A stretch of 47,806 nucleotides of DNA from the NCBI GenBank assembly GCA_029242765.1, contig JAQWTJ010000095.1, forward strand, positions 1 through 47,806. Reading direction: 5' to 3'. Made by a program: the position numbers and the translations under genes. The notes under the pieces are model-generated. The model ran no database searches and was not told the DNA's origin. It saw only the letters and a list, made by a program, of their open reading frames with translations. Shown here piece after piece: positions 26,671-45,327 of the stretch. Every line of letters starts with the position of its first letter. The stretch's first letter is position 1. Origin of the DNA: Flavobacteriales bacterium (lineage in GTDB: Bacteria > Bacteroidota > Bacteroidia > Flavobacteriales_D > Sanyastnellaceae).

Positions 26671-27339
26671 TTAGGGTCTTGGATTATTTTCGATTAACCA
26701 CTGCAAATCGACGAGCAGGTCGTCCATTTCTGGGGTGTCCGTGCCGTCATAGACGCCGCGAATATGTCCGCCGCGATCGATGAGTACCACTTGGTCAGAG
26801 TGATAAAATCCGCCTTCAGCCGTGTCGCTAGGCAGGGCGGTCAGGAAGTGACCCTGTTCGATATGCTCGTACAAATCGCCGCGCTTGCCGGTGAGAAAGA
26901 CCCATTCATCTGAGGTGACGCCCAGTCTTTCGGCGTAGGCCTGCAGCCTTGCGGGCTTGTCGCGTTGGGGGTCGACCGTGTGGCTGATAATCACCACCTC
27001 GGGCGACCACCCGTTGGCTTTGATTTCTTCATTGATGCGTGAAAGCTGTGAAGCGATTGCCGGGCAGATGGTGGGGCAATGCGTAAAGAAACAATCGGCA
27101 ATGCGTATACGACCGAGCAAGTCTCGATGTGAAAATTCGCCGCCGTATTGATCGGTCAAGGCAAACATGGGTACGGTGTGGTACAGCGTGTCCACTGAAC
27201 CGTCGGGCAGCTCTACGGCATCTTTCGGCCCGAAATAAGGCAAGCTTTGTGGCGATGAAGCTCCACCCACACTACAGCTCACCATCGACAGGGCCAGCAG
27301 ACCGGCGCCGATTATGTGCAGTGCTGTTTTCTGATTCAT
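26671..27339 (-). CDS. SCO1/SenC family copper chaperone
   Basis: This 222-residue lipoprotein (lipobox ending MVSC, about residue 22) has a thioredoxin fold and the copper-binding CPTIC motif in FFTHCPTICPAIASQL (about residues 88-103). The third ligand is the histidine in FYHSDQVVLIDRGGHIRG (about residue 180). SCO proteins deliver copper to, or reduce, the CuA site of cytochrome oxidase subunit II at the outer face of the inner membrane. All three ligands are present, in contrast to the paralogue encoded just upstream (27336-27989), with which it overlaps by 4 bases. The DUF420 gene follows after 3 bases. Confidence 0.95.
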   Translation of the reverse strand: MNQKTALHIIGAGLLALSMVSCSVGGASSPQSLPYFGPKDAVELPDGSVDTLYHTVPMFALTDQYGGEFSHRDLLGRIRIADCFFTHCPTICPAIASQLSRINEEIKANGWSPEVVIISHTVDPQRDKPARLQAYAERLGVTSDEWVFLTGKRGDLYEHIEQGHFLTALPSDTAEGGFYHSDQVVLIDRGGHIRGVYDGTDTPEMDDLLVDLQWLIENNPRP

Positions 27340-27989
27340 CGGGACCGTTTTTTGTATTTCTTCAACAAGGCAATGTCCTCAACGGCTTCGCCGATTTCAT
27401 GCTCGCTGGTGGCCAAGTATTTCTGCCGCACGTATCCGTGTTCGTCCACCAAAAATAGGGTGGCCACATTGTAGGGGTCCATCGGATCGCGTTCAAGAAG
27501 AAAACTCTCGACGATGGCTTGGTCTATATCGGCATTTGAACCTGTTAGAAAAATCCACTTTCCAGGTTCGCCGTTGTATCGCGTGTTGCGGTCTATGTAC
27601 GCCTGCAGATCCGAGGGTCGATCCAATTCCGGCCGAAGTGAAAAGCACAGGGTTCCCACGTCGCCCTCGTCACGGTATCGCCAATTGGGCCACAGGAGCT
27701 GCTTGGTCATCAGCGCCAAATGCGGCGTACTCGCCGAGTCTATAGAAAAGAAGGCTGTAAGCCAAATGGTGCCTCGCAGAGAATCTGGCGTGACGCGGCG
27801 TCCGGATTGGTCTATGAGGTCGAAGTCGGAAAGCTGCAATGCGCCTTCGGAACTTTCAATGCGCGCCCCTGAATGGTCGTAATAGCCCAGCGCTCCAAAC
27901 TGGTGGGAGGCGCATTTGCCTAACATGACCAGAAGCAGCAAGGGCAAGCCCGGTACGAAAATGACCAGCAGGATGTTGCGAAGCCGCAT
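27336..27989 (-). CDS. SCO-like protein without copper ligands
   Basis: This 217-residue protein has an N-terminal membrane helix (NILLVIFVPGLPLLLLVMLG) and a thioredoxin-like body alignable by eye with its neighbour: SDFDLIDQSGRRVTPDSLRG, then WLTAFFSIDSASTPHLALM where SCO has FFTHCPTICPAI, and YNVATLFLVDEHGYVRQKY where SCO has the histidine. Both cysteines and the histidine are gone. It is the fifth gene in the oxidase operon and overlaps the true SCO gene by 4 bases. I infer a structural or partner role in oxidase assembly; it cannot bind copper the SCO way. Confidence 0.85.
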   Translation of the reverse strand: MRLRNILLVIFVPGLPLLLLVMLGKCASHQFGALGYYDHSGARIESSEGALQLSDFDLIDQSGRRVTPDSLRGTIWLTAFFSIDSASTPHLALMTKQLLWPNWRYRDEGDVGTLCFSLRPELDRPSDLQAYIDRNTRYNGEPGKWIFLTGSNADIDQAIVESFLLERDPMDPYNVATLFLVDEHGYVRQKYLATSEHEIGEAVEDIALLKKYKKRSR

Positions 27990-41460: not shown

Positions 41461-42660
41461 ATGGATGAGGGCATGGGTGCTGGAATCAGCAACGAAAAAT
41501 TGAAGCGGTGCGATGTGAGTTTTGGGTCGACTGTACGCTTCGGGATGCTCGGCGGCGGCCAGCTCGGGCGCATGACGATTCAGGCGGCGCAGAATCTGGA
41601 TTTACGTGTCGAAGTGTTGGACCCCGATGCGGCCGCACCCTGCGCGCGTACAGCCTACCGCTTTACCCAAGGTGATTTGAACAATGCAAAGGAAGTCATT
41701 GATTTTGGTCGCAATCTCGACGTGTTGACGGTTGAACTTGAAAACGTGTCCATCGAAGGCTTAACGGCCTTGAAGGCGATGGGCGTACAGGTGTGGCCTG
41801 ACCCCGAGCACTTGGCATTGATTTGCGACAAGGGCGTGCAAAAGCAATTTTTCGCGGACAACGGCATCCCCACGGCAGACTTTCACTTGATTGAAGGGCG
41901 GGCCGAGACGATGACGCGGGCCTTGCCATCAGTGCAGAAGTTGCGCGTGGGCGGGTACGACGGCCGCGGCGTGCAGGTCTTCCGAACGGAGGACGACGCT
42001 CGTTACGGATTTGATGCGCCCAGCGTGCTCGAAGACGCCGTTGATATTGCGATGGAGCTTTCGGTGATTGTAGCGCGATCCACGGCGGGTGAGGTGGCGA
42101 CCTACCCGGTAGTTGAGGCGGTGTTCAACGATTTGAATCTTGTGGACTTCACGGTGGCACCGGCCCGCATCTCGGAAGAGGTGGCGGAACAGGCGCGTGC
42201 AATAGCTTTGGATATTGTCGAGAAGATGAACTTTGTGGGGCTGCTTGCCGTGGAATTGTTTCTCGATCGGGACGGAGCGATTTGGGTCAATGAGATCGCA
42301 CCAAGAACGCACAACTCGGGCCATCATACGATTGAAGGGAACGTGACTTCTCAATTCGAACAGCACCTTCGGGCGGTGCTGGGCCTGCCGCTGGGTTCTA
42401 CAGCGACGCGTAGGGCGGCGGCGATGCTCAACTTGATTGGGGGGGCTGAAGCTGAGGGGACACCGGTCTATGCTGGGCTGGCCGAGGCGATGGCTATGGA
42501 CGGGGTGTATCCCCACGTGTACGGCAAGGCGCTCGTGCGCCCGGGCCGTAAGATGGGCCATGTAACGGCCCTGGCTCCGAGCGCCACTCCGATGTGTGCA
42601 ACTTCTGCAGCCAATCGCATAATCGAACTTAAATCGCTGCTGTCCGTCCAAGGCAGCTGA
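41461..42660 (+). CDS. purK: N5-carboxyaminoimidazole ribonucleotide synthase PurK
   Basis: This 399-residue ATP-grasp enzyme of purine synthesis carboxylates aminoimidazole ribonucleotide with bicarbonate and ATP. Seen: [17 protein letters not shown] (N-terminal nucleotide-like fold), [81 protein letters not shown] (shown in part: [17 protein letters not shown] is diagnostic) and the C-terminal GRKMGHVT. The start is uncertain: ATG 41461 is directly behind the -7 box; ATG 41473 is the other candidate, and the first 25 residues are not conserved in the family. The PurE partner is not in the window. thyA follows 14 bases downstream. Confidence 0.95.
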
Positions 42661-42674: not shown

Positions 42675-43469
42675 ATGCGTCAATACTTGGATTTACTGGA
42701 GAAATTGCTGGAGGAAGGCGTTGAGCGGCCCGACCGAACGGGGACGGGAACGTTGGGCCTTTTCGGCCACCAAATGCGCTTTGATTTATCCAAGGGCTTT
42801 CCGGTGCTGACCACCAAGAAGCTGCATCTGAGGTCAATTATTCACGAATTGTTGTGGTTTCTCAAGGGCGACACGAACATTGCCTACTTGAAGGAGAACG
42901 GCGTCCGCATTTGGGACGAGTGGGCGGACGAGAATGGCGACCTTGGACCGGTGTACGGGTACCAGTGGCGAAATTGGCCCAACCCCGACGGCACCCACAC
43001 GGATCAAATCGCCCAACTCGTAGACCGGATCAAAACCCAGCCGCACAGCCGCCGGCACGTGGTCAGCGCTTGGAATCCGTCGTTTATCGATGACATGGCC
43101 TTGCCGCCTTGCCATTGCCTGTTTCAGTTTCACGTTCAAAATGGGCGCTTAAACTGCCAACTCTACCAACGCTCGGCCGACACCTTCCTTGGCGTCCCCT
43201 TCAACATTGCGTCCTATGCTTTGCTCACGATGATAATGGCCCAGGCTTGTGACTTGGAGCCGGGTGATTTCGTCCACACCTTCGGAGATGTGCATCTGTA
43301 TTTGAATCACGTGGACCAGGCCCGCGAACAGATTTCTCGGGATGTGCGCAGCTTGCCCACGATGAAGATCAACCCGGAAGTGAAGGATATTTTTGCATTC
43401 AAGGGCGAGGACTTTGAGCTCTGCGATTACGATCCGCACCCCCACATCCGAGCTGCCGTTTCGGTTTAA
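42675..43469 (+). CDS. thyA: Thymidylate synthase
   Basis: ThyA methylates dUMP to dTMP with methylene-tetrahydrofolate, giving dihydrofolate. The 264 residues equal the length of E. coli ThyA and follow it closely: [49 protein letters not shown], the catalytic cysteine in [34 protein letters not shown] and [14 protein letters not shown]. The C-terminal residues include the usual closing segment (HIRAAVSV). The dihydrofolate produced is recycled by the DHFR domain encoded 24 bases downstream, a common thyA-folA pairing. Confidence 0.98.
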
Positions 43470-43493: not shown

Positions 43494-44321
43494 ATGCACG
43501 TTTCGCTCATCGCCGCAGTGGCATCCAACAGGGCCATTGGCAAGGACAACGACCTGCTGTGGACGCTGCCCGACGACATGATGTTTTTTAAGCGCATGAC
43601 CCGGGGACGGCACGTGATTATGGGCCGCAAGAATTGGGAGAGCATTCCGCACAAATACCGTCCGCTTCCAGGGCGGCCGAATTTCGTTTTGACACGCAAC
43701 TTGGGGTATGAAGCAGTGAACGCCATGGTCGTTGGCACGCTTGCAGACGCGCTCGCTGCGGCTGAAAAGGCAGGTGAAACTGAAGCTTATGTGATAGGGG
43801 GTGCACAGGTGTATGCATTGGCCCTTGAAGCGGACTTGGTCGATACAATGTGGATTACGCACGTGCACAAGTCTTACGAAGGCGACGCGTTTTTTCCTGT
43901 TTTTGATGCGGATCGATGGGATATGGAAACCACCGAGGAGCATCCGGCCGATGACCGTCACGAGGCGGCTTTTAGTATTGTCAGGTACACGAGAAAACGC
44001 CGCGCCAGCTCCGGTGTTTCGGACCAGATCAGAACCGCGGATCAAGCGGATCAAGTGCCTCGGAGCTCAGAGCATTTGTCGCTGATGACCCGTGCGCTCC
44101 TGTTTCTGGTCAAGGGCTATCAATCGGTCATCTCGCCTTTGCTCGGATCGAATTGTCGGCACACCCCGACGTGTTCAGTCTACGGAATAGAGGCCTTGCG
44201 CGTTTGGGGAGCGGCCAAGGGGTCGTGGCTCACTGTGCGACGCATTTCTCGGTGCAATCCTTGGCACGAACCAGCATACGACCCCGTTCCTTCACGCGTT
44301 ATGGATGGGAAAAAGCAATAA
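43494..44321 (+). CDS. folA: Dihydrofolate reductase fused to YidD (membrane insertion efficiency factor)
   Basis: This is one reading frame of 275 codons (counted from ATG 43494) with two recognisable modules. Residues 1-166 are a full dihydrofolate reductase: VSLIAAVASNRAIGKDNDLL, WTLPDDMMFFKRMT, VIMGRKNWESIP, PNFVLTRN, VIGGAQVYALAL, ITHVH. A hydrophilic linker of about 30 residues (RASSGVSDQIRTADQADQVP) leads to a complete YidD domain of about 75 residues: LFLVKGYQSVISPLLGSNC, RHTPTCSVYGIEALR, KGSWLTVRRISRCNPW, AYDPVP. DHFR is cytoplasmic; YidD sits at the inner face of the membrane and helps YidC. An internal ATG at 44085 starts the YidD module, so separate translation is possible. A sequence error removing a stop is the main alternative to a true fusion. 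Confidence 0.9.
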   Translation: MHVSLIAAVASNRAIGKDNDLLWTLPDDMMFFKRMTRGRHVIMGRKNWESIPHKYRPLPGRPNFVLTRNLGYEAVNAMVVGTLADALAAAEKAGETEAYVIGGAQVYALALEADLVDTMWITHVHKSYEGDAFFPVFDADRWDMETTEEHPADDRHEAAFSIVRYTRKRRASSGVSDQIRTADQADQVPRSSEHLSLMTRALLFLVKGYQSVISPLLGSNCRHTPTCSVYGIEALRVWGAAKGSWLTVRRISRCNPWHEPAYDPVPSRVMDGKKQ

Positions 44322-44330: not shown

Positions 44331-44882
44331 ATGTTTAAATTCACTCTCTCTCCAGGTTTCCTGCATTTGTCTGCGCTTGCATTGCTTGTAACAACTATTT
44401 TCTCATCTTGTTCAGAGCCGGAAAAGAGTGCCATTTGGAACGAGGCGGCGACCCTGCATCAGCACATGGTGCAGATTGGTGAGCAACTCCACCACGATGT
44501 GGAAGATTTGATGGAAACGGTGAACGCTGACTTTGAGTCGGCCGTGGCTAAGGGCGACAGCGCCTTGGCCCGTCGACTGGCTTCAGCTTCTGCTCGACTT
44601 GAGCATTTCGACAGTCATTTTCATACGTGGAATGAGACGGTGGTGGCCATGCCGGGTGAGAGTTGCAGCCACGAAGACCACGACCACGACCACGATCACG
44701 GTGACCATGACCACCACCATGTGACGACCTTGCCTGACGGTTTGAGTGACGAGGATATGCTGGAGATTCAAGCGACAATCATGGAAGCGCTTGAGGCTTT
44801 GAATCGGGAGTTTGAATTGATTCAATCGGCCAGTGGGCCTGTACCGGCAACCGATGCTGAGCCGGAAGGTGCATCAGAATGA
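44331..44882 (+). CDS. Lipoprotein with His/Asp-rich metal-binding loop
   Basis: This 183-residue protein has a signal peptide with a lipobox ending FSSC (about residue 26). The body is two long alpha-helical segments (LHQHMVQIGEQLHHDVEDLM to SASARLEHFDSHFHTW, and DEDMLEIQATIMEALEALNR) joined by a loop with alternating His and Asp (SHEDHDHDHDHGDHDHHHV). Such a loop binds zinc, copper or nickel. It is not a family I can name. The next gene, 7 bases downstream, encodes a Fur-family regulator, so a role in metal storage, buffering or sensing at the envelope is a reasonable inference. It follows the DHFR-YidD gene by 9 bases. Confidence 0.85.
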   Translation: MFKFTLSPGFLHLSALALLVTTIFSSCSEPEKSAIWNEAATLHQHMVQIGEQLHHDVEDLMETVNADFESAVAKGDSALARRLASASARLEHFDSHFHTWNETVVAMPGESCSHEDHDHDHDHGDHDHHHVTTLPDGLSDEDMLEIQATIMEALEALNREFELIQSASGPVPATDAEPEGASE

Positions 44883-44889
44883 AGCGCGA

Positions 44890-45327
44890 ATGGACGAGTT
44901 GAGAAGTGAAGTTTGCAAGCGACTTGAGGACTTTCTTGAGAAGGGCGGCCACCGCCGAACTCCAGAACGCTTTGCCGTTCTCGATATGATATATGCTCAC
45001 GGCGGTCATTTCGATATTGACAGGCTTATGGCTTGGCTCGCCGAATCCGGACGAAAGGTCAGCCGAGCGACGCTGTACAACACCATTGAGCTTCTTATGG
45101 AGGCGGGATTGGTTAGAAAACATCAATTCGAGGAGGGCAATTCTCAATTTGAGCCCGGCTACCCTGCGCGCCAACACGACCATATCATTCTAGACAACGG
45201 CGAAGTGCTCGAGTTTTGCGACCCGCGCATTCATCAGATCAAACGCACGCTCGAGGAACATTTCGGCATTGAGGTATTGCATCACGCCCTGCATATTTAC
45301 GCACGGAGAAAACCCTCCAAGAAATGA
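44890..45327 (+). CDS. Fur-family metal-responsive transcriptional regulator
   Basis: This 145-residue protein has a winged helix (RTPERFAVLDMIYAHGGHFDIDRLMAWL, with the recognition region RATLYNTIELLMEAGLV) and a C-terminal dimerisation and metal-binding domain. The metal-site segment reads QFEPGYPARQHDHIIL followed by DNGEVLEFCDPRIHQIKRTL. The HDH ligands and the EFCDPRI typical of Bacteroidota Fur proteins are there, but the CxxC usually found right after HDHIIC is missing, with one residue deleted. I chose ATG 44890, 7 bases after the lipoprotein stop. The regulated metal (iron, zinc or other) is unknown; the His-rich neighbour points to zinc. Confidence 0.9.
   Translation: MDELRSEVCKRLEDFLEKGGHRRTPERFAVLDMIYAHGGHFDIDRLMAWLAESGRKVSRATLYNTIELLMEAGLVRKHQFEEGNSQFEPGYPARQHDHIILDNGEVLEFCDPRIHQIKRTLEEHFGIEVLHHALHIYARRKPSKK

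Follow-up and report, generated by a model that had tools for sequence, protein, structure and literature searches.

A dihydrofolate reductase-YidD reading frame in one Flavobacteriales draft genome, probably a recent fusion of two neighbouring genes

We analysed a stretch of 47,806 nucleotides from a draft genome of a Flavobacteriales bacterium (the window) and found a single open frame that encodes a dihydrofolate reductase (DHFR), a hydrophilic linker and a YidD domain. The explanation that we favour as a whole, with a probability of roughly two in three (0.68), is a recent, lineage-restricted fusion of two neighbours, folA and yidD, that were already translationally coupled. Both domains are ordinary, and the fusion is a fresh instance of a known event, the joining of adjacent genes. 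It is known from a single draft genome, the only one for its species, and no report of a DHFR-YidD protein was found in the literature searched on YidD.

Results

The fused frame and its two domains

The frame starts with an ATG at 43494, ends with the stop codon at 44319-44321 and translates into 275 amino acids without internal stops; its parts and neighbours are given in Table 1. The preliminary description had proposed one uninterrupted frame with a complete DHFR, a linker of 30 residues and a complete YidD, and this was borne out by the translation, by Pfam and by TIGR00278. The match to DHFR_1 (PF00186) extended over profile positions 2-159 of 159 with 165 bits, and the match to PF01809 over positions 2-67 of 67 with 92.1 bits, showing that both domains are whole; the TIGR00278 YidD profile was passed with 75.8 bits against a cut-off of 40. 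Two such domains in one frame are far beyond what chance can explain. The draft (2.22 Mb, 110 contigs, 97% complete) contained this frame as its sole YidD match and its sole DHFR match in profile searches, and the second yidD that had been suggested as something to look for was not found there.

Table 1. Features of the folA-yidD region of the window, and congener contigs that end near purK.
Feature	Position	Strand	Basis
purK-like gene, opens the conserved block	41461..42660	+	Pfam ATP-grasp and PurK_C; order kept in three congeners
thyA, thymidylate synthase	42675..43469	+	PF00303, E 1.3e-124
Fused folA-yidD ORF	43494..44321	+	ORF translation and Pfam
DHFR domain, residues 3-167	43500..43994	+	PF00186, E 1.4e-48
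30-residue hydrophilic junction, residues 168-197	43995..44084	+	Sequence, congener alignment
TGATGA in frame +1 relative to the fused frame; resembles the ATGA by which folA and yidD overlap in two congeners	44083..44088	+	Sequence
ATG at the congeners' yidD start position, possible internal start	44085..44087	+	Alignment
YidD domain, residues 200-265	44091..44288	+	PF01809, E 1.9e-26
His-rich putative lipoprotein (by eye)	44331..44882	+	No Pfam match; congener homologue in equivalent place
Fur-family regulator	44833..45327	+	PF01475, E 6.8e-24; equivalent place in congeners
Contigs breaking in or just after purK, before thyA	L079, L080, L081, L083, L085, L086, L087

Alignment with family relatives revealed that 41 of the 42 columns conserved among 19 relatives were retained in the DHFR half and 23 of the 24 conserved among 45 relatives in the YidD half, the exception being a Lys for Arg. 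A Trp and an Asp of the DHFR half, which we take to be the catalytic ones, align with those of two solved DHFRs, and the best solved relative was 8f09 chain A (E 4.3e-45). Judged by these conserved residues, both halves may be functional. The structure predicted for the fused protein, from an alignment of two rows only, had a mean pLDDT of 54, with the YidD part below 50, values too low to be informative.

The DHFR half thus has the full PF00186 domain like a stand-alone FolA, but its C-terminus continues through the linker into another protein. Similarly, the full domain, the conserved residues and the start position of YidD (PF01809, TIGR00278) are all present, whereas YidD is normally a small, free-standing protein and its N-terminus is here joined to DHFR.

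Position of yidD in the family

In the window yidD adjoins folA and not rnpA or yidC, and rpmH (L34), presumably the ORF at 19.5-19.7 kb, is about 24 kb from the fused frame, the distance noted earlier. Profile searches of 114 genomes of the family gave a YidD match in 89 and a DHFR match in 91. According to the coordinates, folA was located on the same strand and less than 3 kb upstream for 65 of the 91 strong yidD matches, a count from which six weak YidD rows and five DHFR rows (fragments, one weak match and that of G074) were left out. Because so many matches share this setting, yidD beside folA is not odd in the family and a location beside rnpA and yidC does not define YidD here; with folA a normal neighbour of yidD, little can be read from the distance to rpmH. 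The genomic setting, which the preliminary description regarded as unusual, therefore loses most of its weight. An excerpt of PMC8082313 places YidD within the SecYEG network as a putative insertion efficiency factor, and one of PMC10502375 describes the E. coli gene as part of an rpmH-rnpA-yidD-yidC cluster.

The usual gap between folA and yidD in the family was about 570-760 nt, with 0.95-1.85 kb in some genomes and 174 nt in one; between the DHFR and YidD domain matches it was 44-47 nt in the genus of the window and 96 nt in the window itself. A gene of 187-194 codons ended right before yidD in 12 of 18 loci inspected, and its copy in genome G003, the only one checked by Pfam, was HupE/UreJ-like (PF13795). 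G085 and G093 carried a yidD of another type away from folA (L033 and L036), in frames of 113 aa with E values of about 1e-24.

The locus in congeners

A profile search detected folA in three of 16 congeners (G088, G093 and G098), and the order purK-thyA-folA-yidD-lipoprotein-Fur-BNR was common to these and the window. For the Fur gene the GTG start in the ORF list overlaps the preceding gene, and the true start may lie further in. In the three congeners folA and yidD are adjacent and separate, in different frames, and overlap by ATGA, ATGA and TAATG, respectively; by sequence, this is the arrangement of translationally coupled genes. Stop-start overlaps of this kind are presented in an excerpt of PMC10666635 as a common sign of termination-reinitiation coupling, which declines when the stop is even about 20 nt away. 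With a stop-start overlap of 1 or 4 nt as the criterion, the three congener pairs qualify and the window does not, its stops being in a frame unused by folA. The congener folA and yidD genes are thus like the coupled overlapping pairs of that excerpt, whereas in the window coupling is replaced by covalent fusion. As evidence against a fusion, the preliminary description had named separate genes in close relatives together with a stop codon or frameshift error shown by reads at the junction; the part that concerns relatives is what we found, in three of the three congeners that have the locus.

The drafts of the other 13 congeners lacked folA, thyA (above the cut-off) and the Fur gene of the block. 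All seven congeners with purK and without folA had a contig that stops inside purK or at most 183 nt downstream of the match (Table 1), G090 having the first 26 codons of thyA at the contig edge, and the other six had no close purK match either. Since contigs break at purK in all seven informative drafts, we did not conclude that folA and yidD were truly lost from most congeners. No match to ThyX was found in any of the 17 genomes of the genus (g1), which leaves the congener drafts that lack thyA with neither type of thymidylate synthase, perhaps because of an assembly gap. In G098 (L037), purK and thyA each matched the window in two frames, indicating frame breaks in that draft.

The junction

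Between the last common Arg codon and the yidD ATG there are 90 nt in the window and 23 in G088, a net gain of about 67 nt (1 mod 3) in the folA tail that alters the frame: folA comes into the frame of yidD and the old stop is bypassed. The folA products of 19 relatives end 3-14 residues past the last conserved Tyr (His in three), whereas that of the window continues for 32 residues, up to the yidD Met. The junction contains a direct duplication of 9 nt (44037-44054). The internal ATG to which the preliminary description had pointed is present in the sequence.

None of the three frames contains a stop ahead of the yidD start, so that an open junction of 90 nt is in itself not beyond chance. 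Codon usage weakly favours the fused frame for the junction, placing it 4.6 bits above the next frame when 117 other genes (193 kb) of the same genome were used as reference. The true frame won in 1497 of 1524 coding windows of junction length, and the margin of 4.6 bits falls between the 5th and 25th percentiles (3.6 and 12.4 bits) of real coding windows.

A repeat or mobile piece was rejected as the source of the tail, the genome holding no second copy and just two short chance-level matches. In a comparison of the tail, in three frames, with 14 HupE-like targets (two of them trivial one-residue entries), the best score of frame +1 was equalled by 2 of 200 shuffles and those of the other frames by 198 and 68 of 200. 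This is only a hint that the tail may be a remnant of the HupE-like gene that other family members have between folA and yidD.

Search for other fusions

Frames of at least 200 aa were found for three of the 91 strong yidD matches of the 114 family genomes, whose match list shows no sign of truncation, those of the window, G003 and G081, and no DHFR-YidD frame was seen elsewhere among them. The 271-aa HupE-YidD frame of G003 (L039, 1732-2544) was rejected as a comparable fusion, since it results from a shift of 1 nt where the HupE-like gene ends. The HupE terminus known from G001 and G002 is still encoded there in the abandoned frame, and because this frame remains conserved the joining is either very recent or an error. 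The 264-aa frame of G081 was an out-of-phase shadow over the HupE-like gene.

With the fused protein as query, searches of the order (399 genomes) and of the class (395 genomes) gave a stop-free match over both domains only for the genome of the window, among the matches listed (the best rows for the order, E <= 1e-55 for the class); a diverged fusion with another linker could escape these searches. YidD was present in 79 of 80 further order and class genomes (77 genera), and DHFR was not seen joined to it among their strong matches. One strong match, in G124, was in a frame of at least 200 aa; this 387-aa frame (L131, 658-1818, minus strand) was set aside because YidD is N-terminal in it and is followed by an unknown protein, without DHFR. 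About 310 residues follow YidD in that frame, with a signal-like start (by eye). A second, diverged YidD match (E about 1e-8 to 1e-17) was present in 18 of the 80 genomes; these diverged second YidDs (L132, L136 and weak matches) were mostly in frames of about 130-190 aa, and in G031 a diverged YidD domain was found within a frame of 379 aa.

A contig scan of the named close relatives detected a single DHFR, at 54% identity, but not a fusion. Phage records matched in 548 cases, all below 60% identity, and two covered at least 80% of the query; the lone row above 80% (84%) among the matches listed spans two annotated features, a DHFR and another protein. The junction, whose conservation the preliminary description proposed to check in related genomes, was thus found in no relative, for the order, class and phage searches among the matches listed, and in none of the three congeners holding the locus. 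Given that no other DHFR-YidD frame was seen in these searches, we regard the junction as unconserved and see no support for selection of a bifunctional enzyme.

Integrity of the reading frames in the window

All 41 genes of at least 100 aa in the window, about 42.7 kb of coding sequence, had a congener match. The comparison paired 84 congener genes with the window, and for 72 of them one match covered at least 85% of the gene. No indel-type break inside a window gene was found among the 84 once the flagged cases were set aside, namely opposite-strand shadows, one G098 frame starting in the shadow of its neighbour and a SCO1 pair.

Two conserved genes of the contig have a single in-frame stop each. 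One, for a HlyD/CusB-type membrane fusion protein, has a TAA at 23205-23203 (minus strand), beyond which conservation with three congeners continues; the other, which spans about 940 codons in two congeners, has a TAG at 2208-2206 (minus strand) in the window, with both flanks conserved at about 39% identity and a first part without Pfam match. They may be young pseudogenes or base errors, and they make single bases of the contig less trustworthy.

The SCO1/SenC pair (26674-27989, minus strand) consists of two genes with an ATGA overlap in the window and of one frame in G088, G093 and G098; the second copy in the window has its own lipoprotein-type start or signal (by eye). As a fusion or fission in the converse direction, this pair indicates that such events happen between these species.

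Discussion

A true bifunctional protein, two products or a lost stop codon were the readings listed in the preliminary description, and our analysis retains them as the right set. According to the explanation that we favour, an insertion or a slippage-type expansion in the unconstrained tail of folA would have caused the fusion. Ribosomes translating folA would then run on into yidD, and the main product would be one polypeptide, DHFR-flexible linker-YidD, made 1:1, in which DHFR would be carried by YidD to the membrane surface as a passenger. The simplest view is that of a near-neutral fusion in which both domains would still work, the sequences giving no sign that tethering is useful.

The main uncertainty is whether the junction was read correctly, either because folA in fact ends in another frame at TGATGA and is coupled to a separate yidD, or because a junction stop was miscalled. 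A length difference of one base in one direction would restore an overlap like that of the congeners, and G003 offers a precedent with its 1-nt shift before yidD, which shows that yidD can look fused because of an indel or an error. The broken frames of purK and thyA in the G098 draft and the in-frame stops in two other conserved genes of the contig point the same way, as do the contigs that end near purK in all seven informative congeners, which suggest that the region assembles badly. However, the comparison with 84 congener genes revealed no indel-type break in a window gene, which makes a chance indel within 90 nt unlikely a priori, and even after a one-base shift folA would have a tail exceeding that of congeners by about 22 codons, suggesting that something real happened here. 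The codon usage of the junction also prefers the fused frame by its 4.6 bits. On balance we consider an error of the consensus unlikely.

Less probable still is that two products are made, the fused protein and a free YidD started at the ATG at 44085, with YidD function mainly in the short form. The position of this ATG matches the yidD start of relatives, and the sequence downstream is retained. Shine-Dalgarno sites precede 9 of 116 genes, fewer than the 20 obtained when the upstream regions were shuffled, and in a lineage so independent of them their absence is no obstacle to an internal start. In addition, according to work cited in an excerpt of PMC10666635, translation of downstream genes more commonly begins by de novo initiation. 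On the other hand, in congeners the stop of the upstream gene overlaps the yidD start, and the same excerpt states that such coupling requires a stop very near the start, whereas in the window ribosomes in the fused frame meet no stop at this ATG. The ATG is placed in a predicted stem: with 60 nt on each side its mean unpaired probability was 0.148, lower than at any of 138 gene starts (first ATGs, assigned mechanically) and lower than at 275 of 276 internal ATGs. This value varied with the flank, from 0.13-0.15 at 40-80 nt on each side to 0.43 at 30 nt, where the ATG was no longer below all the gene starts. The predicted mRNA fold around it was no more stable than shuffles (z -0.28), and the coupled yidD starts of congeners were also low in predicted accessibility (0.26-0.40). 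We infer that the fused protein is the main product.

An adaptive origin, in which a bifunctional enzyme was selected because DHFR tethered to the membrane or produced in 1:1 dosage is an advantage, appears very improbable to us. The intact domains and the hydrophilic linker would suit it, but the fusion was found neither in the three congeners with the locus nor among the other strong yidD matches of the family, nor, among the matches listed, in the order and class samples. We know of no biochemical link between DHFR and YidD. In the DHFR-thymidylate synthase of protists and plants both enzymes belong to folate metabolism and the fusion is widespread. The window resembles that case in having DHFR fused in frame with both domains intact, and differs from it in its unrelated partner and its occurrence in a single genome; thyA is just upstream and unfused.

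The recent fusion of coupled neighbours may be carried one step further, to a fixed DHFR-YidD protein that is the sole source of both activities and in which YidD holds DHFR at the insertion site of the inner membrane. We regard this as possible and rather doubtful. If it were true, it would mean a dual-localised folate enzyme and would prove that a 20-kDa domain at the N-terminus leaves YidD able to work.

Because no relative was found to share the fusion, it has little weight as a pointer to a new function. It would capture the step from two genes with a stop-start overlap to a single one, the former overlap still being legible in the frame that folA has left, and, if real, it tests whether YidD can bear a folded domain attached to its N-terminal helix.
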